From IMG/VR virus record IMGVR_UViG_3300044712_000580, positions 1 through 35,919 of that record: a DNA stretch of 35,919 nt; one strand, given 5' to 3'. The notes beneath the pieces are model-generated. The model was given only the letters and a program-made list of their open reading frames with translations, searched no databases and was not told the origin of the DNA. The DNA comes from a virus. Position 1 is the stretch's first letter, and each line of letters starts with the position of its first letter. Of the stretch, positions 3,143-28,194 are shown piece after piece. The translations under genes were made by a program, and so were the position numbers.

Positions 3143-5006
3143 CTGTATCGTCTTGATTTTGTTGCAACCAGTAACGCTGCATTGTTATTGTATCGGTCGG
3201 ATCGTAACTTATGTATGCCATTAAAACGCTGTATCTATCTGCCTGAACATCCCACTCATACGCCACAACTACAAACGGTAAGTCAGCAGGAAGGCCGGGG
3301 ATGTTCAATGTATAAATATCTCCTAACGTCAATGCCTTACCGTATAACTCAACTTCAGCATAAAGTTGCGGCTTTGCAAATAGTCGCATATAGGTGTTAG
3401 CGGCAAAGATTGTCAGCCCTCTTTCTTCGGTGTCATAATCGCTTATAAAGCCACTTGACAGCCTTGCCCCGGTGCTATCGTAAAGAAAAGATATGTATTC
3501 GTCATATTGAAAAAAGTTTGCCCCATTTGGGCTAAATTCAGTATCAAAATTCAAGCCAATTGTTTCAAATTCTTCGTTTGGCCTTAGCCCCTGATTGGCT
3601 TTTATTCCAACCGATTTAAATAGCTTGTAATCTGTTTCGCTTGCCGTTTTACTTGCTAAAACATCCGCAAATGCAAATCGCATATAAGTTGTTCCGCTGT
3701 TGTAAGTGGTGCCTAATGATGGAACGTCAGGCCGGTAAATGCGAATAATAATTGTACCGCTTGCCGGCGCAATGGTGCTGATATTCAGGATTGCATTAAT
3801 ATCCGTTTCGCTTGCTAAAATTATCGGCCCTGCTGTTTGTGTCCATTCACCCGATGCCTGCAACCACCAAGGCGTTCCGCTTTGGTCTAAATTAATTGCC
3901 ACGCGCGGGTTAACCGTTCCTGCGCCGCCGTCCGTAATTTCCCATTGCAGGAAAACCCGAACAGCTTCACCCTCGGTAACTGCACCGCCTTCGTTTACAT
4001 AAAAATCGTTGCTGTTTGCGTTTGATGCAACGTAATTACCTAATACCTCAAAGTAATTTTTCCCTGAAATTGTAATCAGGTCAAACATTTCAGTAGCCAG
4101 TGTTCCCTGTTGCTCCCAAAATGTAAACCCTTTATTTGGGCCGGATGGTACATAATCGGCAAAATCCCTGTTCTTCTGTGTGTGTCTTATTGAATAATGA
4201 TAAGACCTTGCAGTGACCTTTGATAATGGGCTTTCAAATCGGACATTTAGCGACCTGTCAACTATAAAATAATTGTCAAGTAAATCGTTAGGATAACCGG
4301 CCATCGCCTTATCAATCCAATTTTCAATAACCCAATTCCCTGCATTTTGGTAAACAACGCATTGAAGCTGTCGGCAGATTTTACTCAATAAATCATAGGC
4401 CATTTGGGGCTGTTGACCCAAATAATCCAATGCCATTGATTGCTCAAGATAAACCGTATCGTTTGCGAAATCGTAAATTTCGTCCGTGTGTCTTACCGAT
4501 GTGCTAATGGTTACCGGCAGGCTAATATCTGTGTAGGTTAGCTGCCTTTCAGCCATTTGTCCTAACGTTTGCAACTCGATAAAGGCACTATCTAAAACCG
4601 TGTCGGGAGTAGTCTGCAAAGCCCCTAAATTGTCACTAAACTGCAATTCCAATTCACGCAATCCGTAAGGGCTATAATTAACGCTTGTTTGGGGCTGCAA
4701 CCATCCGTACCACTCCCACCCTGCATCGCTTGTCCATTCAATAAACCATGTACGGTTATCGGCAAGGATAAATTCCTGTATTTGTGACGGTTCTAAACTT
4801 ACCCTTAAAGTAAGCTGCGAACCGCGTACAGGGTGCAAAAGATTTGCATTGCTTTTATCGTAACTAAGACGCATGAAGTCACGGCCAACCATGAAAGGCA
4901 AGGCAATGGGAGAACCGCCGTAACCTTCCTTTTTGATTACAATGCTGTGCAGTTCGCCATCTTTAACCGATGCAAAAGAAAAAGTGTATTTAGAACCTAA
5001 TGCCAT
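3135..5006 (-). CDS. Distal tail / baseplate-type protein
   Basis: 623 aa, directly after the tape measure gene (1-base overlap of stop and start), where siphophages encode Dit/Tal-type tail-tip proteins. The N-terminal ~130 residues (KYTFSFASVKDGELHSIVIK ... WYGWLQPQTSVNYSPYG ... LELQFSDNLGAL) resemble a Dit-like opening domain. The middle (residues ~290-450) has a Trp- and Gly-rich beta region that could bind carbohydrate. No peptidase or glycosidase motif was seen. Call rests mainly on gene order and size. Confidence 0.6.
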   Translation of the reverse strand: MALGSKYTFSFASVKDGELHSIVIKKEGYGGSPIALPFMVGRDFMRLSYDKSNANLLHPVRGSQLTLRVSLEPSQIQEFILADNRTWFIEWTSDAGWEWYGWLQPQTSVNYSPYGLRELELQFSDNLGALQTTPDTVLDSAFIELQTLGQMAERQLTYTDISLPVTISTSVRHTDEIYDFANDTVYLEQSMALDYLGQQPQMAYDLLSKICRQLQCVVYQNAGNWVIENWIDKAMAGYPNDLLDNYFIVDRSLNVRFESPLSKVTARSYHYSIRHTQKNRDFADYVPSGPNKGFTFWEQQGTLATEMFDLITISGKNYFEVLGNYVASNANSNDFYVNEGGAVTEGEAVRVFLQWEITDGGAGTVNPRVAINLDQSGTPWWLQASGEWTQTAGPIILASETDINAILNISTIAPASGTIIIRIYRPDVPSLGTTYNSGTTYMRFAFADVLASKTASETDYKLFKSVGIKANQGLRPNEEFETIGLNFDTEFSPNGANFFQYDEYISFLYDSTGARLSSGFISDYDTEERGLTIFAANTYMRLFAKPQLYAEVELYGKALTLGDIYTLNIPGLPADLPFVVVAYEWDVQADRYSVLMAYISYDPTDTITMQRYWLQQNQDDTDG

Positions 5007-6871
5007 TATCCAAAATTCATCCTGTTGTTACGTGCCGCCATGCTTACGGCAAAAAGTAAAGTGTTGCCGCTAAATTTTGCCGTTAATTCACCGCCGCCCA
5101 TTGCGCCTGCATTTGGTACGATTGAACCGGGCTGTGAAGGGTAAAATGTTTCCGGTCCCGATTCACCTACAATGTAACCGCCGCCGGGTAATACAGAACC
5201 ACCACCCGCGCGGCCTCCAAATACGCCGCCAAATAATTTACCGATAAATCCACCGCCACCGGCTGCACCCGCCGCTGCACTGCCCCCACCTGTAACCAAT
5301 GATAAAACAGCTTGTAAAATCAATGCTTTTGCAACGGCCTTTACCAATTCAATTACCAACCCTTTTACACTTTCGCCCAATGCCTTAAAAATGTTTTCAC
5401 CGTTGGCAAGTGCATTAAATACGCTATCAACCGCCGGCCCTAATGTGTTTCCAATAATGTTTGCCGTTTGCTGTGCATCTTCCTGCAATAGTGCAAAATT
5501 TTCCTGTGCTTTTAATATAGCCGGATCAATGCCACGCCCCGGCAAGCCTGTTGCGCCTCCTGCTGCCTGAATGTTTTTTTGCTTATCTAAAACGGATGTT
5601 TTCTGTTTTGCCGCAAATGCTTTATCAGCAGCCTGCGAAAGCGCCAACAATCCCGCTGTTTCCTGATTGGTTAAAAGTATTGCCTTTTCCCGTTGAGTGT
5701 TTATAATGGTTTCCTGTTCTGCCGCTTTGCGGCTTACTTCAACACTTTTCGTTCTTGCCTTATCAGACTTTTCAACAACCCCAGGAACCTGCCCCAATGA
5801 TTTAATCAGGGAATCAATACCTAATTTTACTTTTTCGTTTTCTTTCCTATATAGTTCTTCGCTTGTTTTTGCTTTTGAAAACGCGTTACCTATTCCTGTT
5901 GCAAAATCAGCCGCCGCCGTTGCCCCACCAAAAAGCGTTTTAATTAAATCACCTGCCGATAATGCCCCCGCAGCGCCAAATACGTCACCCTGTTCAACCG
6001 CGATACCTAATGCAACGCCTTTAGCGTACTCCTCCGCCGCCTTTGCTGCTAAGATTGAACTCCGCGCCTCCTCTTGCTTTATTTGGGCATAAATAGCCCC
6101 TATTTGCGAACCTTGTTTTTGAAGTTCGCCAATAGAACCAACCTGCAACCCATATTCAGAAAGCGCTTTATTTGCAGCATCAAAAGCCGCATTTTGGCGG
6201 GCTGTACTTGCTTCGCTGTCATTTACAATTCTAACGAAATTGCCGAAACTTTCCTGCGCCTTACTAAATGCCTCCGCGCCCTTTGTACCGGCATCCCTTA
6301 ATGTTTGGTCAAATTCGCTAATACCCGCAATTGCGCGGCCAATAGCAGGGCCGAAAACAATCAAAGCCGATGTTACCGCGCTTATTGCAATACCTATACC
6401 TGCCGGCCCTAATAATGCACCACCTAACGCCTTTAGTGCACCACCTGTCGAACCTGTTGACTTTTGAAGGGATTGAAAGGAAGAAATTAAAGGGTCTATG
6501 TTGTTGGCAATACCGATAAGTCCAAAAGGTGCATCTTGTACAACGCGCCCAAAGTTAACTAAGGCAGGATTAGCGTTTGCAGCCCCCTTACCGACTTTGC
6601 TAACGCTTACGGCTGCATCATCCAAAGGCTTTCGCAACCTTGCCGCCTGTGCGCTTAATGATGCAATTGCCGCGTTAATTTGGTTGAGGTCTGCTGCCGT
6701 TTCAGCCCCTGCCCGAAGTTTACGCAATTCGGCTAAACCCGCTTCAAGCTGTTTAAGGTTTTTAGCGCCATTAATGCCCAAATTCTTTAAGGCATCCGAA
6801 GCCCCCTGGATGTTGGCAATAGCGGACTTAACATCCGCCTCCAATATTATCTCTAACCTTTCTTCAGCCAT
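5006..6871 (-). CDS. Tape measure protein
   Basis: 621 aa. The protein sets tail length and helps DNA entry. Residues 1-100 are Ala/Lys/Glu-rich and helical; a hydrophobic segment lies at ~150-185 (ALLGPAGIGIAISAVTSALI); a long charged helical region follows (EQETIINTQREKAILLTNQE); a second hydrophobic stretch is at ~520-570. The C-terminus carries the typical glycine-rich motif GRAGGGSVLPGGGYIVGE then SGPETFYPSQPGSIVPN, seen at the end of many tape measures. It follows the tail assembly chaperones, the canonical order. At 621 aa the expected tail is fairly short. Confidence 0.92.
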   Translation of the reverse strand: MAEERLEIILEADVKSAIANIQGASDALKNLGINGAKNLKQLEAGLAELRKLRAGAETAADLNQINAAIASLSAQAARLRKPLDDAAVSVSKVGKGAANANPALVNFGRVVQDAPFGLIGIANNIDPLISSFQSLQKSTGSTGGALKALGGALLGPAGIGIAISAVTSALIVFGPAIGRAIAGISEFDQTLRDAGTKGAEAFSKAQESFGNFVRIVNDSEASTARQNAAFDAANKALSEYGLQVGSIGELQKQGSQIGAIYAQIKQEEARSSILAAKAAEEYAKGVALGIAVEQGDVFGAAGALSAGDLIKTLFGGATAAADFATGIGNAFSKAKTSEELYRKENEKVKLGIDSLIKSLGQVPGVVEKSDKARTKSVEVSRKAAEQETIINTQREKAILLTNQETAGLLALSQAADKAFAAKQKTSVLDKQKNIQAAGGATGLPGRGIDPAILKAQENFALLQEDAQQTANIIGNTLGPAVDSVFNALANGENIFKALGESVKGLVIELVKAVAKALILQAVLSLVTGGGSAAAGAAGGGGFIGKLFGGVFGGRAGGGSVLPGGGYIVGESGPETFYPSQPGSIVPNAGAMGGGELTAKFSGNTLLFAVSMAARNNRMNFG

Positions 6872-8875: not shown

Positions 8876-9486
8876 TTGTAAAGTATTGTAATCCGTTCGC
8901 CGGGATTATCCCCACTTGGACCATAAAATATATCACCTTCAACCAAAGAAAGTATAGTTCCTGAAATCATGATTTGGTTTCTTTGCGGGTTTGATGTTAC
9001 AACAGTTTTTTCGTTTCCATCCCTGAAAGCCAAATACACCGTTGAATCCGCCAAAGCTGATAAATCCAATGTTGCAGAATCAGCCGGAACGGTATAATAA
9101 AGCGTCTGCAATCCTGCCACCGTTGCGCCACCTCCGGAACCTGTAAAATCAACGCCGGAAATGTAGGACGCTTCCAACTTCACCAACCTTTTACGGTTCT
9201 TTTCGGGCAGGTTAACTATGTCCTCAATATCGTAAATGTTGCCGGCATAGTCCACAATAAACATATCCCGCGTAAAGCTGAAATCTGCGCGATAATTGGT
9301 AAATATCTCAAAGACGTTTGAAGTTGCCATCCTTTCCGAAATAATCACATCCCCGCCGGTTGCCTGGTTAATGGTTGCGTAACTTGGGGCATTCGTTTGC
9401 AGCAAAGGAGCCGCCGGGGTAAATTCATAATACCCGTCAGGCGCTTTCTGATATTTGTAAACCGTTATGCTTTCGCTGTGTACCAT
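8872..9486 (-). CDS. Probable head-closure (head-tail joining) protein
   Basis: 204 aa. The central part (DMFIVDYAGNIYDIEDIVN followed by RKRLVKLEASYI) fits the head-tail joining family of SPP1 gp16 type, which plugs the portal-adaptor channel. The N-terminal ~60 residues match the usual start of this family (TVYKYQKAPDGYYEF). The C-terminal ~80 residues, after a Gly-rich linker (GSGGGATVAG), are an extra beta-type domain not usual in the short family members. Lies between adaptor and gp10-like genes. Confidence 0.6.
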   Translation of the reverse strand: MVHSESITVYKYQKAPDGYYEFTPAAPLLQTNAPSYATINQATGGDVIISERMATSNVFEIFTNYRADFSFTRDMFIVDYAGNIYDIEDIVNLPEKNRKRLVKLEASYISGVDFTGSGGGATVAGLQTLYYTVPADSATLDLSALADSTVYLAFRDGNEKTVVTSNPQRNQIMISGTILSLVEGDIFYGPSGDNPGERITILYK

Positions 9487-10067
9487 TAATAGCTAAGTAT
9501 GTAAGGCTGAATCATAATCTCGACAATTGGAGAAATCCCTTTAACATTGGCCGCATCCCTGTGCGTCCACATATAACCGGCTTGAACCTTTACGGCTTCA
9601 ATCAAATCGGAATAATCACCCGCGCCTGTTTCGTAGGTAATTTTATGCAGCCCCGGAACGGTTGTTTCAATTTCCTGCCTGTCAGTACCGATTATAATGT
9701 AATCGTCAAATTCGGTTAAGGTTTCCCAGGTTTCGCCGCCATCGTCCGAATATTCCACGCTGGTAATGCTGCTGATTGGATAGATTGGTATTTGCTCACA
9801 TTTTGCCCCTAATATCATCCACGCAATAGCGTCCTTTTCAATCAGGCTAACGCCTAACCTGTTTTCAATCATTGCCCTTGCAGCCGTTATAAAGGCTGTT
9901 AAGGTGCTATCATTGGCAGTACCTTCTAATTGCAAATAAGCCTTTAATTCCGAAACGCTGACAGGTTCGGATGTGCTGCCCTGTAAAGTAAGTTTTAAAT
10001 CTTTGACCACGTAGGTAAATAGAAAAAGGGCTGGAAAGTTCCCAAACCCTTTTAATTTCGTAGCCAT
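9486..10067 (-). CDS. Head-tail connector (adaptor, gp6-like)
   Basis: 193 aa from the ATG at 10067; a GTG two codons earlier (10073) is also possible. The pattern VSVSELKAYLQLEGTANDST then FITAARAMIENRLG is the classic N-terminal helical hairpin of phage gp6/connector proteins, followed by YPISSITSVEYSDD and a C-terminal helix (DLIEAVKVQAGYMWTHRDA). The adaptor ring sits under the portal. The gene's stop overlaps the next start by one base. Confidence 0.85.
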   Translation of the reverse strand: MATKLKGFGNFPALFLFTYVVKDLKLTLQGSTSEPVSVSELKAYLQLEGTANDSTLTAFITAARAMIENRLGVSLIEKDAIAWMILGAKCEQIPIYPISSITSVEYSDDGGETWETLTEFDDYIIIGTDRQEIETTVPGLHKITYETGAGDYSDLIEAVKVQAGYMWTHRDAANVKGISPIVEIMIQPYILSY

Positions 10068-10082
10068 TGGCACTCGTCCCTA

Positions 10083-11610: not shown

Positions 11611-11641
11611 AAAAAACCCCCGACCTAAAAAAGTCAGGGGG
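11611..11641 (-). terminator. Rho-independent terminator after glycosylation operon
   Basis: Minus strand: CCCCC-T-GAC, loop TTTTTTAG, GTC-GGGGG followed by TTTTTTA. The stem has one bulged base. It lies 26 bp beyond the stop of the last glycosyltransferase gene and separates that operon from the cargo/connector genes. Confidence 0.85.
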
Positions 11642-11666: not shown

Positions 11667-12512
11667 CTATGAATTGCAAAAGTTTATAAATCCTTCAATA
11701 TCCGGTTCCGGCCTGTCATGGTTTAGCGGCCAAATGCTTAACCCTGCTTTTATCATCGTGCAAAGGTCACCAAGTGTATTAAAATAGTTGCTGCACCCTA
11801 CCTCGATATGCCCTGCAATTTTGCTACCAATAAACGGCAATCCCAAACTTTGTACCTCCATGCAAAGCATCGGGTAACCTTCACTTTTACTAAAACTTAC
11901 CACCATGCCAACGCCCTGCAGCACTTCCGGCAGGTTTAAAGACGGTTGCCGATATTCAATGTTTAACCTGTCACCTTTAATCTGCGTACCGTACCCACTA
12001 ACGCCTACAAATTGCTGTTCGGGCATCATTGCTGCTAATTGAATCAACTCACTGCCGCCCTTATTCTTATTGCAGTTCACCAAAGCTATCTTATTGCCGC
12101 CTGTTAGCGGATTTGCGCCCTTGTAACGGTTAATCGGGTGCAATACCATGTTCGGCAAGTCATAGGCAATAGAACGCCTTAAATGCTCCGCAACGTAAAC
12201 CATTTTCACGCCTTTTAAACGTAGTTCAGGGATAGTGTTATGTTGGATGCAAACCACATTTTTACCTTTCAATGGCAACCTTAAATATTGTTGCGGTCTG
12301 CAGGAAATTACGTCAGCCCATTTAATCAGTTTACCGGATTCTGAATAAGGCCTGATTGATACCCCATTCATGTTATCGGTTGCCGTCATTTGTGCTATTA
12401 TAACAGCATTATGCCCACGCCTTTGCAGCTCTTCGCAAAGTAGTTGATCGTACATATCAGCGCCGTTAATTCTGGCTGATACATGGGATGGTGTTATAAA
12501 AAGGAAATTCAT
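11667..12512 (-). CDS. GT4-like (GT-B fold) glycosyltransferase
   Basis: 281 aa from the ATG at 12512, chosen because it makes an ATGA overlap with the previous stop; an in-frame GTG lies two codons earlier. N-terminal MNFLFITPSHVSARINGADM with DQLLCEELQRRGHNAVII is the first Rossmann half. The C-terminal half has the retaining GT4 pattern SKSEGYPMLCMEVQSLGLP followed by FIGSKIAGH, where the E-x7-E region binds the nucleotide sugar. At 281 aa it is short for GT4 (usually 350-400), so the C-terminal helix may be reduced. Last gene of the glycosylation operon; acceptor unknown. Confidence 0.75.
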   Translation of the reverse strand: MNFLFITPSHVSARINGADMYDQLLCEELQRRGHNAVIIAQMTATDNMNGVSIRPYSESGKLIKWADVISCRPQQYLRLPLKGKNVVCIQHNTIPELRLKGVKMVYVAEHLRRSIAYDLPNMVLHPINRYKGANPLTGGNKIALVNCNKNKGGSELIQLAAMMPEQQFVGVSGYGTQIKGDRLNIEYRQPSLNLPEVLQGVGMVVSFSKSEGYPMLCMEVQSLGLPFIGSKIAGHIEVGCSNYFNTLGDLCTMIKAGLSIWPLNHDRPEPDIEGFINFCNS

Positions 12513-13126
12513 AAACACTTTTTTACCTGTTCAAAAACCCTTGCTACCCTGTTTGCATTTGCATCTCCACCAATCCAATTACTACCTTTTACGATGTGCA
12601 AAAAAGCACCTGCAAATACCTCATATTCGCCTTTTACCTCGTAACTCATTAGCCGTACCTGATTATAAACGCTGTGCAATTGCCCCGCCGTGTCCATCCC
12701 ATTACATGGCATAAAGTCAATGCAGCCAACGGATGTGCGGATAAACAGGCAGGCAGGATTTGGATAAAGCAGCCCTAAGCGTTCCTGGTTCGATGCAAAG
12801 AAAAATTTTCCGGCCATTTGTTCGGCAATATTTACAGGCTTAATCGGGAAACAATCATGGTCAAGTATGCCGATTATTTCATGGTCTTGCTTATTGAAAT
12901 TATAGGCAATGTTTAACGCGCAGGCGTGCGACTTACTGAAATCATTTGTGCCTACCTGCAAAAAGGTGTATTTGCAATCGTATTTTTCTGAAATCTCTTT
13001 GCAACCGTTGTTCCTGTTGCCGGTATTGACTACATGAATGCCATCCGGTTCAATGTTTTTTAAGATTAGCGGAATTTGTACGGCTAAGAAATCAGGCTTG
13101 TTGAAGTTTACAATTATGATTATCAT
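12509..13126 (-). CDS. GT-A fold glycosyltransferase-like protein
   Basis: 205 aa. Starts with MIIIIVNFNKPDFLAVQIPL, a typical GT2-type first strand, and has GILDHDCFPIKP (residues ~95-106), a D-x-D type metal/nucleotide-sugar motif (DHD). Shorter than usual GT2 domains (~240 aa). ATGA overlaps on both sides show translational coupling to the methyltransferase and the GT4-like enzyme. Confidence 0.65.
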   Translation of the reverse strand: MIIIIVNFNKPDFLAVQIPLILKNIEPDGIHVVNTGNRNNGCKEISEKYDCKYTFLQVGTNDFSKSHACALNIAYNFNKQDHEIIGILDHDCFPIKPVNIAEQMAGKFFFASNQERLGLLYPNPACLFIRTSVGCIDFMPCNGMDTAGQLHSVYNQVRLMSYEVKGEYEVFAGAFLHIVKGSNWIGGDANANRVARVFEQVKKCL

Positions 13127-13707
13127 TTGGCTTTCTTTGTTTTATGTTTCAAAAGTGCATATGCAATGCGCGTATCTATCACCCTGTAAAGGTAATAACC
13201 TTTCCCTATTCCGGCAACTATCCCGGCCATTACTTCGGGCATATCGCTGTCGTGCCACACAATCAGCTTAGCACCGCATTTAACGGCCTGTTTTGTTTCA
13301 TGTGTAACATTGGCTTCTGTGTGTTCGGCATCTATCCAATAGGCATCACAGGGGTATTGCGTGAAATCAAAGGTCATACTATCGCCGCGCAATTGCGTAA
13401 AAGGAAATTTGCAAAGGCTTCCTACCTTATCCCCGTGTCCTTCGTTAATCGGATGTTGCAGGCTTACATGGGCTAATTCTGTCGGCAGGTCTAAACTGTA
13501 CACTTTGGCGTTAGGTACGGCATTGCAAATTATGGACGTGCCGCGTCCTAAATTCGTTCCTACCTCAAATACACTTTTTGGCTGATGAATCCGCAACAGG
13601 CAGTGCAACACATGGTAATCTTCTCGGAATCCTGTAAATTCATTGTTTTCAATTGCGCCGGATAATAGTTCTTTGGTAACTATGTCGGAATAGGTTTGTT
13701 TAATCAT
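13123..13707 (-). CDS. Class I SAM-dependent methyltransferase (Methyltransf_24-like)
   Basis: 194 aa. Motif I VFEVGTNLGRGTSIICNAV, motif II acidic residue in KVYSLDLPTE, and DAYWIDAEHTEANVTHETKQ then AKLIVWHDSD, the D-H-x-Y-like pattern of methyltransferases that act on sugars or O-antigen. Embedded in the glycosyltransferase operon with ATGA overlaps on both sides, so the substrate is probably the glycan made by its neighbours. Confidence 0.8.
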   Translation of the reverse strand: MIKQTYSDIVTKELLSGAIENNEFTGFREDYHVLHCLLRIHQPKSVFEVGTNLGRGTSIICNAVPNAKVYSLDLPTELAHVSLQHPINEGHGDKVGSLCKFPFTQLRGDSMTFDFTQYPCDAYWIDAEHTEANVTHETKQAVKCGAKLIVWHDSDMPEVMAGIVAGIGKGYYLYRVIDTRIAYALLKHKTKKAK

Positions 13708-14393
13708 TTTTGATATTTTTTATGGTCTTTGCTGAGTGCAATTATTTTCGGCTGCAAATGGTCAATGCCCCATAATTTACGCTTTTCGGGTTCTTCAACC
13801 ATGCAGTAAGATGGGTCAAGTATTTTAAATACATTTTTATGGTAACCCTTCAACCTATTCCAATAACTTTCATCATGCCACCTTGCAACGGTTCCACGTT
13901 CAATATCTTCATCAATCATTGACTTTAAAGGCCTGAACCAACCAATGTAATCTGAACCGCCCTGAAATCCTCCAGCAATGTAGTTTTTTCTTTTACATTC
14001 CGGCATCCATGCGTTACAATTACGGTTTAATTCCCATCCGCCTCCGCCTTTAAAATAGCCAGGATGCTGAACGGCTACAAGTTTGCCAAAAATTTCATCA
14101 CCAACAGGCGCAACAAAACGCATGTCAGCATCGATGTAGTAAAGGTAATCATAGCCGGATAAATCCACCGCGCTCATTATGTGGTAACGCTTTAAAGTCA
14201 TTGCCGGCCACGGTTCGTGTTCAATTTCGTGAAAGGTTAAATTATGGTAAGCGGTTATAAAAAAGTTATTACTAAATACATGGTAATCAACCTCATGGCC
14301 TGCCAAAAAATAAGCCTCTGCACTTTCTAAAAGTGGTGGCACAAAATCAATATAGTTATTTGTCGCAATTATGCACAACGCTACCTTAGCCAT
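13704..14393 (-). CDS. GT6-family glycosyltransferase (histo-blood-group ABO / alpha-1,3-galactosyltransferase type)
   Basis: 229 aa. GT6 enzymes add alpha-1,3-linked Gal or GalNAc to a beta-galactoside and the ABO type requires a fucosylated (Fuc-alpha1,2-Gal) acceptor. Family signatures visible: YYIDADMRFVAPVGDEIFGK with DAD at 88-90, LVAVQHPGYF, YIAGGFQGGS (usual YYGGAFFGG), and ARWHDESYWN at 170-179 (usual A-x-WHDESHLN), then KILDPSYC. Catalytic glutamate of the family is the E in WHDE. Many bacterial GT6 proteins have NxN in place of DxD; this one has DxD, as recalled for a cyanophage homologue. Overlaps the fucosyltransferase fusion gene upstream by 13 bp. No TM anchor, so cytosolic. 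Confidence 0.85.
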   Translation of the reverse strand: MAKVALCIIATNNYIDFVPPLLESAEAYFLAGHEVDYHVFSNNFFITAYHNLTFHEIEHEPWPAMTLKRYHIMSAVDLSGYDYLYYIDADMRFVAPVGDEIFGKLVAVQHPGYFKGGGGWELNRNCNAWMPECKRKNYIAGGFQGGSDYIGWFRPLKSMIDEDIERGTVARWHDESYWNRLKGYHKNVFKILDPSYCMVEEPEKRKLWGIDHLQPKIIALSKDHKKYQK

Positions 14394-15868
14394 GTAAAAG
14401 TTTTTATGTGTTCTATAAATTGATCATCTGTCATCGCACATATCTGTTTCCAGTAGTATTGGTTCCTCGTTCCGTAATCATGCCGGAAAGTACTGTTTGT
14501 TCCCCTGTAATGGTTCATATGGAATAGTTGCCCGGGGACCCTTTCAACGGTTAAAAGCATATTGCAACGCCGCCACCGTTCCTGATCCTCAGCCCCCATG
14601 CTTACGAAGTTCTCATTTTCACCACCGATACCCAAATAGGATACTTTGTTAAATCCAACGCAACCACCGTAGCTGTTACGGTCTTCACGGCTTGCACCTA
14701 CTTTTGGGAACTGCTTACCTGCAAAGCCGCTTAAATCATTACCCATGTTCGGCAAATGTGACCTTTCAACCATGCAAAACCGGCCATCGTAGGGGTAAAC
14801 TACATCGGTTCCGCTGCGAAGCATATCAGCCATTTTAAGTAGCTGAAAGGGCGGGATTAATACGTCTGCATCATAATTGACGACATACGGTGTATTGGCC
14901 GCCTTTGTCATTTCATTGAGCGCTTTGGTTCGGTGGAATTGGCCACCAAAATCAAAGTGCATATAATCGGCAGGTATCTTGCTAAAACATTTGCTGTTAA
15001 TTTCGCCGACAATAATATTGGTGTGAAAATTCGTCTTTAAATATGCAATGACGGTTGCCAAATTATGCAGACGGTCTATATGGTCAAAACTTACCGGAAT
15101 GATAAACGTTACATCGCTCAAATTGGCTTTCTTAATTTCGCCTTGTTGCCAACCTTCAGGAAACAATGTTTTAGTACTGCACCTTTCGGATAATTTGCCA
15201 TCAAACCAAACAGGCGGGTAAACGGTAAATCCATTGGAAAGGTAAGCCGCCCACCATGCAAATGTGCTGTTGCTTATAATGTGAAAGCGGCAATTAATCA
15301 TGTTTATGAAGTCCTGCATTTCATCACCTTTCGGCAAAATATCGCCTTCATGATGCAGCCGGATAAATTCGTAATTGTCTGAAAATGCCTGAATTGGTGC
15401 AGGGTAAAAGTATTCTGAATAAATGCCTGCTGTATAGTCAACGGATAGCTGTTTGTAATTAGGATTATTCAGGTAATCGCCGCGCCGGTAATGAATGGCG
15501 ACTTTTGGAACGCTGCCGGGTTCCGCGCCTTTTGGGGTTAAATAACGCTTAATTTCACCCTCAAAACCTGCCCAGTATTTAGGGCATTGAAGGTAGCCAT
15601 AAAGATTTATCATGTGGCTGTTGCCATCTAAAAAGCGGCCAATCTTTTCATCATATTCAAAACACGATTCAACACGCCTAAAGCCATCGGACAATATTTC
15701 CCCAAACCATTCATCTGGAATATTAAAGTACTTCCGATATTTCCAATCAGAAGGGAAACGCGGTGTGTAACCGTGACGCAAAGCTAAACCGATTGTTGAA
15801 GCAATGGCAAAAATTTGGTTCCCTAATCGCCCGCCGTTGCCAATATTAGGCAGTTGTAGTATTTTCAT
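14381..15868 (-). CDS. Fusion: GT11 alpha-1,2-fucosyltransferase-like domain + GT-A glycosyltransferase domain
   Basis: 495 aa, two domains. Residues 1-~240: GT11 pattern with GGRLGNQIFAIAS (12-24), AIHYRRGDYLNN (124-135; HxRRGDY binds GDP-fucose) and IISNSTFAWWAAYL (197-210). Residues ~250-495: a GT-A domain starting DVTFIIPVSFDHIDRLHNL, with YVVNYDADVLIPP (DAD at 333-335), DRNSYGGCVGFNK and SMGAEDQERWRR, like the galactosyltransferase C-terminal region (E-D near the acceptor). One polypeptide could therefore add two sugars in sequence. First of five coupled genes, preceded by a 58-aa ORF that overlaps it by 23 bp. Confidence 0.82.
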   Translation of the reverse strand: MKILQLPNIGNGGRLGNQIFAIASTIGLALRHGYTPRFPSDWKYRKYFNIPDEWFGEILSDGFRRVESCFEYDEKIGRFLDGNSHMINLYGYLQCPKYWAGFEGEIKRYLTPKGAEPGSVPKVAIHYRRGDYLNNPNYKQLSVDYTAGIYSEYFYPAPIQAFSDNYEFIRLHHEGDILPKGDEMQDFINMINCRFHIISNSTFAWWAAYLSNGFTVYPPVWFDGKLSERCSTKTLFPEGWQQGEIKKANLSDVTFIIPVSFDHIDRLHNLATVIAYLKTNFHTNIIVGEINSKCFSKIPADYMHFDFGGQFHRTKALNEMTKAANTPYVVNYDADVLIPPFQLLKMADMLRSGTDVVYPYDGRFCMVERSHLPNMGNDLSGFAGKQFPKVGASREDRNSYGGCVGFNKVSYLGIGGENENFVSMGAEDQERWRRCNMLLTVERVPGQLFHMNHYRGTNSTFRHDYGTRNQYYWKQICAMTDDQFIEHIKTFTWLR

Positions 15869-16130: not shown

Positions 16131-16266
16131 TGACAGGGGCAGGATTCGAACCTGCATACCAGCTTTTTTGACTTTCCTAAATCAATCCACGGGCGTTAGT
16201 TGTCGGGTGCTACCTCGGCTAACTGCTGGTCAGTGGTCAAGCGTCTACCAATTCCGCCACCCTGTC
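16131..16266 (-). tRNA. tRNA-Leu-like gene with ~50-nt extra segment; anticodon not assigned
   Basis: Minus strand: acceptor GACAGGG (16266-16260) pairs with CCCTGTC (16138-16132), discriminator A, no CCA. D-arm GCGGAATTGGTAGACGC is typical of leucine tRNAs, and the T-arm GCAGG-TTCGAAT-CCTGC is perfect. Length is 136 nt against 80-90 for a class II tRNA. The excess lies where the anticodon arm should be: TTGAC follows the D-arm, and about 50 nt later TTGAT-TTAGGAAA-GTCAA could form an anticodon-type stem but with an eight-base loop. The extra part has its own 5-bp pairing (GTTAG/CTAAC). It could be an intron, an insertion or a decayed tRNA. Confidence 0.6.
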
Positions 16267-16336: not shown

Positions 16337-16528
16337 TTATAACCCCCGTTGCTGCAAGGGTGTGCTTTCAATTTCTTTCGGCTTGCTTTTCTTTTGATAC
16401 TTGTAATTATTGCGCCGATACCATTTTGCCACCCTTTCGCGCTCGAATGACCGAACCTCATCATTGAGCCGGAACCCTGTTATCGGGTGGCCTTGTTCGG
16501 AATAGTTAAGAATTTGCATATTATGCAT
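16337..16528 (-). CDS. Hypothetical protein
   Basis: 63 aa from the ATG at 16528 (another ATG at 16519). Strongly basic C-terminus (AKWYRRNNYKYQKKSKPK). Overlaps the upstream small gene by 8 bp, so the two are probably cotranslated. Function unknown; position after the capsid gene would allow a small head or decoration protein, but it could equally bind nucleic acid. The 70 bp to the tRNA-like gene holds no feature. Confidence 0.5.
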   Translation of the reverse strand: MHNMQILNYSEQGHPITGFRLNDEVRSFERERVAKWYRRNNYKYQKKSKPKEIESTPLQQRGL

Positions 16529-16757
16529 TTTGAATGGTGATAGGTTCGTTGAAATCTTCGAATCGATCCATATACCAACCGGAAGCCCATGTCCCAAAAA
16601 CATTATTATCATCGGTTTCGTATCTGTCTGATTGATTTAGCGGAAGGCCAATGCAAGACCTGTAAAAGAAAAAAATATTTTCCGTACCCTTTTCTTTCAT
16701 TAATTTAGGGAACGGCTTTTCCTGCGGTTTAGATTCGCCAATCGTAACTTTTAGCAT
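16521..16757 (-). CDS. Hypothetical protein after the major capsid gene
   Basis: 78 aa from the ATG at 16757, chosen because it lies 16 bp downstream of a full Bacteroidota promoter; an upstream extension would run through that promoter. Sequence (MLKVTIGESKPQEKPFPKLM ... VFGTWASGWYMDRFEDFN) shows no known domain. First gene of a new transcription unit after the capsid terminator. Confidence 0.6.
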   Translation of the reverse strand: MLKVTIGESKPQEKPFPKLMKEKGTENIFFFYRSCIGLPLNQSDRYETDDNNVFGTWASGWYMDRFEDFNEPITIQNA

Positions 16758-16772
16758 AACGGTTAATTTTGA

Positions 16773-16803
16773 CAAATGTAAAACATAAAACCGATATTCC
16801 AAA
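16773..16803 (-). promoter_or_regulatory. Bacteroidota-type promoter, both elements present
   Basis: Minus strand: -33 TTTG (16803-16800), 19-bp spacer, -7 TACATTTG (16780-16773). It lies between the capsid terminator and the ATG at 16757, so it restarts transcription for the two small genes, the tRNA-like gene and perhaps the glycosylation operon. Confidence 0.8.
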
Positions 16804-16812
16804 CATTTAAAC

Positions 16813-16842
16813 AAAAAAAATTCCCGGTCAAAAGACCGGGAA
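16813..16842 (-). terminator. Strong rho-independent terminator after the major capsid gene
   Basis: Minus strand: TTCCCGGTC-TTTT-GACCGGGAA followed by eight T. Perfect 9-bp stem, 26 bp after the capsid stop codon. It ends the head operon and isolates high-level capsid expression from the genes beyond. Confidence 0.95.
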
Positions 16843-16868
16843 CCTTTTAAAACCAAACAAAACTGCTA

Positions 16869-18026
16869 TTAACCGCTAAAACCCATGTCAATCACGGAGA
16901 AAGCCGCCGGGCGTTCAATTGCAAAGCCAATGGTTGCTTCCGTACGGAAAGTAACACGGTTCTTTACAAAATCATCCTGATCAAACTCGGTTGAACGAAC
17001 ATTCAGCCCTTCGGATTGGATTTTCTTAAAGTACCTCCAATCACCCACTACGGCAGTGTCAGCAGCTACCCATGTAGCAGCGTAAACAGGTACGCCATTG
17101 ATGCGAAGGATTCCAAAGTTGTCAACCATAACGGCACCCGGAACGGTGTAACCGCTTGCAGTGTCCTGAGTAGCCATAAGGCTGTATATTACGCTCGGAC
17201 GGCACACGATACCGTTAACGCCATATTTCGCGTCACCCAGAATACCGATGGTTTCCAGCAGGCCGTTATAGCCGCCGGCAGTGCTACCAACCGTTGAAGC
17301 GGCGGCAACCAACGCGGCATAACCTTTGGTGTCCTCGGCATTGTAGTAATCTTCCGGCAGGTATTGTGCAAGGTAGCTTTCAAGTGCCGGGATGTTACGC
17401 AGCATATTGCGCGTCACCTTAGTGTAAGCGGCCAGTGTTTGCAGCGTAACGGTTACATCGGTCAGGTCGTAATCCCTGTTCGGCTTAACAATGTTCGAAT
17501 TGGGATGATCCCAGTCAAACGAACCCTCACCAATGCTTTCATCATGCCTGATGTAATGGTACAGGTCAGTTGCGCTCGGAACGGTTGCAATTAACTCGGT
17601 AAGGTGACGCGGTGCATTAGGCACGCCAACAATGCCGGGTGCATAAGTAGGCACACCACTTGAACCGGTCAGGTTGTTGGTGATGGTCATAACGCCAACC
17701 GATTTACTTTCAATCTGAAAGCCAACGGATGCAATCTGACGGTCTGCCAACTGCTTGAACTGGTCTGCGTTTTCCTTAACGGCTTTGCCAACTGCCTCGG
17801 CCCATGTGATGGTTTTGCTTTCTTTGGCCTTCATTTGGTCACCAATATTCTTATCAATGCCATCAAGCTGCTTTTGCATAGCCGCCAAAGTTTCATCCAA
17901 TTTTGCGCCCAAAGCCTTAACCTCGGTTGCATCTGCTTTGCCATCGGCAAGGCCCTTCACCTTTTCGGTGTAAAGTGTTTTCAGTTCCTCATATTGCTTA
18001 TTGAGGATGTCATTAATGTTTTCCAT
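16869..18026 (-). CDS. Major capsid protein (HK97 fold)
   Basis: 385 aa. Residues 1-~100 are a charged coiled-coil region (ILNKQYEELKTLYTEKVKG ... MQKQLDGIDKN), the delta/scaffold domain removed by the prohead protease. The mature part has the HK97 pattern: TLQTLAAYTKVTRNMLRNIP, SYLAQYLPEDYYNAEDTKGY, then GVPVYAATWVAADTAVVGDW and VRSTEFDQDDFVKNRVTFRT. Lies 3 bp after the protease gene and is followed by a strong terminator. Forms the icosahedral shell. Confidence 0.95.
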   Translation of the reverse strand: MENINDILNKQYEELKTLYTEKVKGLADGKADATEVKALGAKLDETLAAMQKQLDGIDKNIGDQMKAKESKTITWAEAVGKAVKENADQFKQLADRQIASVGFQIESKSVGVMTITNNLTGSSGVPTYAPGIVGVPNAPRHLTELIATVPSATDLYHYIRHDESIGEGSFDWDHPNSNIVKPNRDYDLTDVTVTLQTLAAYTKVTRNMLRNIPALESYLAQYLPEDYYNAEDTKGYAALVAAASTVGSTAGGYNGLLETIGILGDAKYGVNGIVCRPSVIYSLMATQDTASGYTVPGAVMVDNFGILRINGVPVYAATWVAADTAVVGDWRYFKKIQSEGLNVRSTEFDQDDFVKNRVTFRTEATIGFAIERPAAFSVIDMGFSG

Positions 18027-18849: not shown

Positions 18850-19401
18850 ATGACAAATTTACATGAAAATTGGTTACCAATTAATGGTTATTTAGGTGCT
18901 TATGAAGTAAGCGATTTAGGCAGGGTTAGAACTGTTGAAAGGTTTATTCCTAACCGTTACGGATTTAGAAGATTATCCCCAATAATAAGAAAGCAAAGAA
19001 AAGATAAGGGCGGCTATTTAATAGTTGACTTACGTTTTGATATGGGTATAGAATGTAAAAAAGTACATCGGCTTGTTGCTGAGGCATTTATTCCAAATCC
19101 AAAAAATCTTAAAGAGGTCAATCATATTGACCACAACAAAGAAAACAATTGTGTAAATAATTTGCAATGGGTTACGCGTTCTCAAAACGTAGCTCATACC
19201 GTTGAAAATAAAAAGCATTCATACGGTGAAAAACAATGGCAATCTATTTTAAAGGAATACCAAATTTTGGAAATAATTGAATTGAGAAAGTTAGGCAAAA
19301 CGCATAAACAAATAGCCGAAATTTACAACGTTTCACGCGGTACGATTACTTCCATATTTGTTGGCAGAAATTGGAAACACTTAACGCTTCCTTCTACTTA
19401 A
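18850..19401 (+). CDS. HNH homing endonuclease (NUMOD4 + HNH_3 + HTH)
   Basis: 183 aa. Residues 5-30 form a NUMOD4 domain (ENWLPINGYLGAYEVSDLGR). Residues ~70-115 form the HNH nuclease: VHRLVAEAFIPNPKN, VNHIDHNKENNCVNNLQWVT, RSQNVAHT. The C-terminus (ILEIIELRKLGKTHKQIAEI, YNVSRGTITSIF) is a helix-turn-helix for DNA recognition. Free-standing gene on the strand opposite to the late operon; its 3' end overlaps the MuF gene tail to tail by 21 bp. Such genes spread by cutting related phage genomes that lack them. Confidence 0.93.
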   Translation: MTNLHENWLPINGYLGAYEVSDLGRVRTVERFIPNRYGFRRLSPIIRKQRKDKGGYLIVDLRFDMGIECKKVHRLVAEAFIPNPKNLKEVNHIDHNKENNCVNNLQWVTRSQNVAHTVENKKHSYGEKQWQSILKEYQILEIIELRKLGKTHKQIAEIYNVSRGTITSIFVGRNWKHLTLPST

Positions 19402-26800: not shown

Positions 26801-27091
26801 ATGGAACAACTAACTATTGACTTTGGCCATCCAGCCCGCAAAACAGATCCGCAAACATCGCACATTGCTGCGGATATGATTAATTTCCGAAACAAGCATT
26901 TTGCCGTTATCTTGTACGTTCTTACCGAACCAATGGGCAAAGATGGCATTGCAAGGCTTACCGGATTAACAGGAACTCAGGTTGACCGCCGATTGCACGA
27001 AATGGCAAAGGCTGGATTGGTTGAATTGACAGGCAAAAAGGTATTGAGCGATGCAGGCAGGCCGGAAAGGGAATGGAGGAAAAAGTTATGA
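26801..27091 (+). CDS. Winged-helix-like DNA-binding protein
   Basis: 96 aa from the ATG at 26801. FAVILYVLTEPMGKDGIARL, TGLTGTQVDRRLHEMAKAGL and VELTGKKVLSDAGRPEREWR have the spacing of a winged helix (helix-turn-helix plus wing). Short N-terminal TIDFGHPARKTDPQTSHIAA is common in phage proteins of this kind. It overlaps the methyltransferase by ATGA, so the two are coupled; it may control or accompany the methyltransferase. Confidence 0.7.
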   Translation: MEQLTIDFGHPARKTDPQTSHIAADMINFRNKHFAVILYVLTEPMGKDGIARLTGLTGTQVDRRLHEMAKAGLVELTGKKVLSDAGRPEREWRKKL

Positions 27092-28194
27092 CACATGGCA
27101 GCTTATTTTCAGGCATTGGCGGCTTTGATTTAGCCTCTCAATGGATGGGATGGCAAAATCTGTTTCATTGTGAAATGAATCCTTTTGGGCAAAAGGTTTT
27201 GAACCACTATTGGCCGGATGCTGAATTATTTACCGATATTACAAAATCAGATTTTAAAAAGTATGCAAACCAAATTGATATTCTCACCGGAGGATTCCCC
27301 TGCCAGCCGTACAGCCACGCCGGAAAAAGACTTGGCAAAGAAGATGACCGCCACTTGTGGCCGGAAATGCTTAGAGCAATACGGGAAATTCAACCGACAT
27401 GGGTTGTGGGCGAAAACGTTAGCGGCCTTATTAGTTGGAATGGAGGGCTGGTATTCCACGAGGTGCAAACTGACTTGGAAGCTGAAGGGTACGAAGTATT
27501 CCCGGTTGTACTTCCAGCTTGCGCCGTCAACGCTCCCCACCGAAGGGATAGAATTTGGTTTATTGCCTACTCCGGATTGCAGCGACAGACGGAGCGACAA
27601 CAGCAGTCAATGGGGATTGAGCAACTACGCAAAGAACGGCCTATTATTAACACCAACGACCAGGGAAGAACCACAGGATTTGGAGGTATTCAAAAAGAGA
27701 ATGGAGAAATACCCGAATGGAACAACGATTCCGAATTTGGCAACGCAAGTAATGGGATTACTACCAACCCCGCAAGCAATAGACGGAAACGGCACGGGAA
27801 GGGAATTGAGATTGAAAAAGGATTGCAACCGGAACCCGAATCAGCCGGGAAGTTGGAGGGGGGATTTGAAGGATTATGCAGTGCATGGGATGTTGCCGAC
27901 ACCGGCAACCAGGGATTACAAAGGGGCAAGGTCAACGGAAGCATTACAGGAATCAGGCAGGAACCACACAAACAGCCTGCCGGATTCATTCCATCAACCT
28001 GGCAAAACTTCCCAACTCAACCCTCGGTTTGTGGCCGAAATGATGGGGTTCCCGCCGGATTGGTTGGAATTACCGTTTCAAAGCACCGAAACGAAAGCAT
28101 AAAGGCTTATGGTAATGCAATAGTTCCGCAGGTAGCTTTACAAATTTTTAAAGCAATACAGCAAATGGAAAATAATTTTGCCAATCTCACCTAA
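27088..28194 (+). CDS. DNA cytosine-5 methyltransferase
   Basis: 368 aa from the ATG at 27088 (ATGA overlap; an in-frame ATG at 27073 is possible). Motif I SLFSGIGGFDLA (5-16), motif IV GGFPCQPYSHAG with catalytic Cys72, motif VI GENV (108-111), motif VIII HRRDR (151-155), motif X SIKAYGNAIVPQVALQIFKA at the C-terminus. The region between ~165 and 300 is low-complexity and polar (target-recognition region), which is where a second frame is also open. No cognate restriction enzyme is present, so it is an orphan enzyme, probably protecting phage DNA. Confidence 0.95.
   Translation: MTHGSLFSGIGGFDLASQWMGWQNLFHCEMNPFGQKVLNHYWPDAELFTDITKSDFKKYANQIDILTGGFPCQPYSHAGKRLGKEDDRHLWPEMLRAIREIQPTWVVGENVSGLISWNGGLVFHEVQTDLEAEGYEVFPVVLPACAVNAPHRRDRIWFIAYSGLQRQTERQQQSMGIEQLRKERPIINTNDQGRTTGFGGIQKENGEIPEWNNDSEFGNASNGITTNPASNRRKRHGKGIEIEKGLQPEPESAGKLEGGFEGLCSAWDVADTGNQGLQRGKVNGSITGIRQEPHKQPAGFIPSTWQNFPTQPSVCGRNDGVPAGLVGITVSKHRNESIKAYGNAIVPQVALQIFKAIQQMENNFANLT
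27263..28102 (+). CDS. Overlapping ORF inside the methyltransferase gene, conserved-looking LLPTP / LNPRFV protein
   Basis: 279 aa from the ATG at 27263 (an earlier ATG at 27218). Read in the +1 frame relative to the methyltransferase. It is not random: RCKLTWKLKGTKYSRLYFQL, three LLPTP/MLPTP units each with a following D or R-D (FGLLPTPDCSDRR, MGLLPTPQAIDGNG, HGMLPTPATRDYKG) and a C-terminal LNPRFVAEMMGFPPDWLELP. As I recall, LLPTPxAxD and LNPxFVxxMMGFPxxW occur together in phage proteins annotated near or within Dcm-type genes. So both frames probably encode protein. Function unknown. Confidence 0.6.
   Translation: MQTKLIFSPEDSPASRTATPEKDLAKKMTATCGRKCLEQYGKFNRHGLWAKTLAALLVGMEGWYSTRCKLTWKLKGTKYSRLYFQLAPSTLPTEGIEFGLLPTPDCSDRRSDNSSQWGLSNYAKNGLLLTPTTREEPQDLEVFKKRMEKYPNGTTIPNLATQVMGLLPTPQAIDGNGTGRELRLKKDCNRNPNQPGSWRGDLKDYAVHGMLPTPATRDYKGARSTEALQESGRNHTNSLPDSFHQPGKTSQLNPRFVAEMMGFPPDWLELPFQSTETKA

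Follow-up and report, generated by a model that had tools for sequence, protein, structure and literature searches.

Pairs of GT11 and GT6 glycosyltransferases are already present in other phages and bacteria. In E. coli O86, WbwK (GT11) and WbnI (GT6) produce the B antigen, an alpha1,2-fucosyltransferase being followed by an alpha1,3-transferase that acts on Fuc-alpha1,2-Gal (PMC4202792). Among phages, the cyanophages S-CAM9, S-8S55, ACG-2014f and P-SSM2 have annotated GT11 and GT6 genes within one gene run, two cyanophage GT6 genes having been noted already in 2014 (PMC3961637). As for virus-made glycans on virions, capsid glycans of mycobacteriophage Che8 and its relatives have been attributed to phage-encoded glycosyltransferases (cited in PMC11256854), and the chlorovirus PBCV-1 protein A111/114R, which joins galactosyl-, xylosyl- and fucosyltransferase domains in one chain, takes part in the cytoplasmic assembly of the glycan on the capsid protein (PMC7826918).

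Here we analyse an IMG/VR virus record of 35,919 bases (the window, meaning this whole stretch of DNA), in which a GT11 and an ABO-type GT6 gene, members of the families behind the human H and A/B blood-group sugars, likewise stand in one gene run. The resemblance to the cyanophages extends to the DxD motif of GT6 and, in S-8S55 and S-CAM9, to gene order, GT11 and GT6 overlapping by 4 nt in these two phages. However, the cyanophages are large myoviruses whose island also contains sugar-nucleotide genes, their GT11 is a separate gene, and the location is not between capsid gene and adaptor. The O86 genes belong to a chromosomal O-antigen cluster outside any phage and lead to the B antigen. BoGT6a of Bacteroides ovatus and human GTA and GTB share the GT6 fold and catalytic residues with the window protein, but BoGT6a is an NxN-type, metal-independent enzyme of a separate clade (PMC3961637), and GTA and GTB are vertebrate Golgi proteins. 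The mycobacteriophages have actinobacterial hosts and are likened to the window by the description of their virion glycosylation; A111/114R comes from a eukaryotic virus, has three domains and serves an N-glycan, and the abstract describing it mentions no GT6 (PMC7826918).

Results

The phage, a siphophage of 36 kb, has Flavobacterium phage 11b as a relative. Its terminase is 51% identical to those of phage 11b and Cellulophaga phage phi10:1, and its capsid protein 31-34%, a kinship from which a Bacteroidota host is likely; a genome search pointed to no host genus, since of the 395 genomes searched in one class only 4 had a distant capsid match. Phage 11b and phi10:1 lack any annotated glycosyltransferase in the interval from capsid gene to adaptor. 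In the window, this interval holds, on the minus strand, five overlapping genes that end at 11667. The order, in which the features given with coordinates are likewise on the minus strand, starts from the major capsid protein (MCP) gene of the Phage_capsid family (16869-18026) and continues with an intrinsic terminator with a 15-pair stem and a T run (16815-16848), a promoter-like site of the Bacteroidota type, TTTG-N19-TACATTTG (16773-16803), at the head of the cassette unit, a small conserved ORF (16521-16760, likely start ATG near 16757), a tRNA-like stretch, the cassette, a second intrinsic terminator (11617-11640) that closes it after its last gene, small ORFs, and the head-tail adaptor (9486-10073). 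The initial annotation had proposed adjacent, overlapping GT11 and GT6 genes in an operon within the structural region, and both statements hold: the ORFs at 14381-15868 and 13704-14393 share 13 nt, and the cassette is placed between the major capsid gene and the head-tail adaptor. The methyltransferase and two further glycosyltransferases that it listed are present as well, though with weak matches that all stay below Pfam cut-offs. These are a Methyltransf_24-like protein of 194 aa (13123-13707; 24.7 bits against a cut-off of 26.3), a GT2-like protein of 205 aa (12509-13126) and a GT4-like protein of 283 aa (11667-12518; PHROG 26352), the GT4 relatives in two other contigs, L006 and L073, exceeding the cut-off.

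The first gene encodes 495 aa and is a fusion. Residues 1-245 belong to GT11, as is indicated by PF01531 (42.8 bits against a cut-off of 23.9, E 5e-11, residues 122-217; 62.4 bits for the homologue in L006), by PHROG 2644 (E 5e-28, residues 7-241) and by HYRRGD at residue 126, an instance of the HxRRxD motif whose role in GT11 has been described (PMC4202792). The initial annotation overlooked the second domain, a GT-A glycosyltransferase domain at residues 248-494 (PHROG 15655, E 7e-40) with DAD at 333 and GAEDQERW at 425, so that its fucosyltransferase is the first half of the protein only. Its statement that GT11 enzymes make Fuc-alpha1,2-Gal describes the usual but not the universal case, since the GT11 member HhFT2 of Helicobacter hepaticus is an alpha1,3-fucosyltransferase (PMC4202792). 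An alpha1,2 linkage to galactose is therefore a putative product of this half, inferred within a family that also includes an alpha1,3 enzyme. The structure model of the fusion reaches a pLDDT of 76.7, with some stretches of the second domain scoring low, and the fold matches of that domain are weak; they include chondroitin polymerase and a beta1,4-galactosyltransferase, which would make 'galactosyltransferase-like' only a lead. Relatives of this domain are fused with or adjoin GT11 in 27 of 35 genes, a count in which the window appears twice, and on this basis the fusion may couple the addition of a hexose to that of fucose.

The 229-aa product of the second gene is a GT6 protein: the profile search that the initial annotation had named as able to place it outside the family placed it within (PF03414, 82.3 bits against a cut-off of 25, E 3.6e-23). 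The NCBIfam family-6 model gave an E of 5.9e-39, yet under its own 250-bit cut-off, and the best PDB sequence matches are human ABO chains (E 6e-20). Its AlphaFold2 model (pLDDT 94.9) resembles GTA and GTB at a Foldseek TMq of about 0.8-0.9 (E about 1e-21) and BoGT6a at a TM of 0.87/0.86; taken together, the fold matches to these enzymes are at about 0.87-0.90. The expected residues are in place, namely D88 and D90 of the DAD at 88-90, the catalytic glutamate E175 in WHDES (172-176) and the C-terminal K222, all of them nearly invariant across 81 viral GT6 sequences. With DAD and a branch separate from BoGT6a, the protein falls outside the NxN metal-independent subgroup. That it keeps DxD was thus read correctly, but this is no peculiarity, as 81 of 81 viral and 48 of 80 prokaryote GT6 sequences read have it. 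Nor are GT6 genes rare, as had been claimed: we count at least 544 viral loci, plus 186 matches in prokaryote genomes.

The AGG at residues 140-142 aligns with the donor-pocket triplet of ABO, residues 266-268. In the alignments it is identical in BoGT6a, a GalNAc enzyme, and shares its Gly-Gly with human GTA (LGG). By analogy alone, the triplet favours GalNAc over Gal as the predicted donor, and with it an A-like product; it is common to most viral GT6s, 78 of the 81 sequences having AGG. The putative reaction is a retaining alpha1,3 transfer of Gal or GalNAc to a (fucosylated) galactose, and the DxD motif predicts metal dependence, such as was found for a DxD GT6 enzyme of Parachlamydia (PMC3961637).

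In the GT6 tree, the window protein forms a fully supported group with those of L005 and L006 (67% and 52% identical), whose neighbours are one sequence from a large phage and two bacterial ones assigned to Verrucomicrobiota (100/93). The NxN clade that includes BoGT6a is clearly separate. The bootstrap is not fully settled and human ABO forms a very long branch whose placement is not trustworthy. We also considered a recent transfer from vertebrates; it is unsupported, given the length of the ABO branch and the grouping of the window with phage and Verrucomicrobiota-assigned sequences, though the ABO placement is unsure.

Do the two enzymes act one after the other? Of 81 viral GT6 loci, 60 have a GT11 gene no more than 6 kb away, and so do 57 of 80 loci of the control family GT25, although the control is not independent, half of its loci also containing GT6. 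Immediate GT6-GT11 adjacency was observed in 12 of 49 loci against 7.6 expected, whereas GT25-GT11 adjacency was stronger, at 37 of 52 against 14.5. We had considered viral co-occurrence as proof of a dedicated pair and rejected it: with GT11 as common beside GT25, co-occurrence alone does not prove sequential action. The same control, which marks GT11 as a promiscuous partner in phage sugar islands, speaks for the alternative that GT11 and GT6 each modify separate sugars within a longer glycan, or have separate acceptors, so that no H-to-A motif arises. In bacteria, however, GT11 and GT6 adjoin in 20 of 42 loci (9.3 +/- 2.6 expected), and three bacterial proteins join GT6 and GT11 in a single chain (L224 7992-9590, L225 8004-9635 and L247 1226-2806; records titled Hoeflea, Planctomycetota and Magasanikbacteria, respectively). 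These fusions and the adjacency enrichment support sequential action, as does the O86 pair, and the adjacency is retained in L006, at 52% GT6 identity. We thus hold separate action to be quite possible, if not favoured, a judgement compatible with either target of the cassette and not additive with those on the targets below. Action of GT11 and then GT6 in the window, as far as gene arrangement can tell, is plausible but unproven.

Conservation of the cassette is closest in L006, a distant phage in which all five genes recur in unchanged order from capsid gene to adaptor; one additional ORF is inserted (GIY-YIG-like by eye), and the GT4 and adaptor genes overlap by 19 nt. L005 retains the GT6, methyltransferase and GT2-like genes together with part of the fusion, and here they precede a head-morphogenesis gene; the methyltransferase homologue keeps its operon position in both L005 and L006. 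A scan for capsid relatives returned 80 contigs, namely L007 as a close relative and 79 others that make up one clade (L008-L086). The capsid sequences of the latter fall into a single cluster at 70% and, the window, L006 and L007 included, into 29 clusters at 95%. A GT4 homologue follows the capsid gene in 70 of the 79, and the other nine contigs end no more than 0.9 kb from the capsid gene; every clade locus with enough downstream DNA (70/70) therefore has it, between MCP and adaptor as in L006. The adaptor homologue follows GT4 in all 55 clade loci tested, at a median distance of 3 nt, and 69 of 70 have a terminator-like hairpin just after the capsid gene, with counterparts in L006 and L007. 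One further ORF precedes GT4 in 63 of 70 loci; those of the ORFs between capsid gene and GT4 that were looked at are methyltransferase-like or unrecognised, and GT11 is absent from all 79 contigs. This arrangement shows conservation by descent in one clade, not repeated origin.

The promoter pattern also directly follows the MCP terminator in L006 and L007. Its value lies in this position, as its count in the window (3, against 2.6 expected by chance) shows no excess. A homologue of the small ORF comes after the MCP gene in L007. L007 is the closest capsid relative (92%), and at 3527-4839 it has a truncated GT11 fusion that, together with the genes beyond it, is in reverse orientation, through either an inversion or a chimeric assembly. 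Because these two are indistinguishable, we left L007 out of the gene-order evidence.

Discussion

From the protein families, gene order, overlaps and conservation, all of which are observed, we infer every step of a cytosolic, phage-encoded glycan pathway that would be expressed with or near the head genes, would act on the virion and would end in an A-like structure; we put its probability at about 45%. The GT4-like and GT2-like enzymes would start or extend a short glycan, to which the C-terminal domain of the fusion would add a hexose, perhaps galactose, and the N-terminal GT11 half an alpha1,2-fucose on that hexose. GT6 would then attach an alpha1,3-linked GalNAc, Gal being the less likely sugar, with the help of a divalent metal, and the methyltransferase might modify or cap the glycan. 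The nucleotide sugars would come from the host cell, since the window showed no recognisable gene for their synthesis. As acceptor we consider a virion protein most likely, of the capsid or of the connector or tail, which would carry a surface glycan with a blood-group-A-like terminus. Expression of the cassette is probably late, and the conserved capsid-to-adaptor position leans towards the virion over the host surface.

The main rival to virion decoration is modification of the host surface, in which the cassette would remodel the capsule or lipopolysaccharide of a Bacteroidota cell during infection, so as to block the adsorption of competitors or to spare the progeny from loss on debris. 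Bacterial GT6 and GT11 enzymes do act on O antigens, as in E. coli O86 (PMC4202792), and cyanophage GT6-GT11 genes reside in large sugar islands with epimerases. The promoter-like site and the terminators on both sides give the cassette a moron layout that also fits independent expression and so counts against the virion pathway, as does the cassette of L005, which sits elsewhere, before the head-morphogenesis gene. On the other hand, the GT4 gene, and in L006 the whole cassette, shares a gene run with the head-tail adaptor, and the overlap of GT4 with the adaptor gene in L006 departs from the moron pattern. Furthermore, lysogenic conversion is unlikely, as the window showed neither a recognisable integrase nor a repressor. 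Gtr-type seroconversion modules consist of a GtrA flippase and a GtrB bactoprenol transferase with membrane helices. Prediction gave no transmembrane-type hydrophobic stretch in any of the five cassette proteins, and the profile search of the five found no GtrA/GtrB-type family; the cassette is thus not such a module, and the lack of a flippase or membrane glycosyltransferase among its proteins favours the virion. On balance we think the host surface somewhat unlikely as the target.

A third reading, that the glycosyltransferases modify phage DNA bases as the T4 glucosyltransferases do, could appeal to the cytosine-C5 DNA methyltransferase that the phage encodes in its early region (27073-28194, plus strand). 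Yet the cassette is placed among head genes, the window showed no recognisable gene for a hydroxymethylase or for modified nucleotides, and GT6 and GT11 are not known to have DNA acceptors, so we regard this reading as highly improbable.

A broader form of the virion pathway, in which Bacteroidota tailed phages coat their capsids with a virus-made glycan that ends in a histo-blood-group-A-like motif, and a modular cassette retained between capsid gene and head-tail adaptor varies by lineage around a constant GT4, seems to us doubtful. If the glycan is indeed on the virion, phages that probably infect Bacteroidota would join chloroviruses and mycobacteriophages as carriers of virus-made capsid glycans, and their enzymes would imitate a human antigen pathway. 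A GT4 beside the capsid gene across a whole clade is a clear oddity even with the host surface as target. The GT11-GT6 pair, being small and soluble and having a GT6 of the DxD type, would be useful for studying donor and acceptor evolution in the ABO family.

Two minor features of the window may be added. An HNH homing-type endonuclease gene with a NUMOD4 motif (18850-19401, plus strand) separates the protease gene from the head-morphogenesis gene and runs on the opposite strand. The tRNA-like stretch upstream of the cassette (16131-16266, minus strand) matches the Rfam tRNA model at 37.3 bits and includes acceptor, D and T arms. Its anticodon/variable region is longer than normal by about 50-60 bases, and it receives no ARAGORN call. 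In L007, the matching place upstream of GT11 holds a tRNA-Thr(CGT) call of ordinary length (5000-5087), and the stretch in the window could be a decayed or interrupted tRNA.
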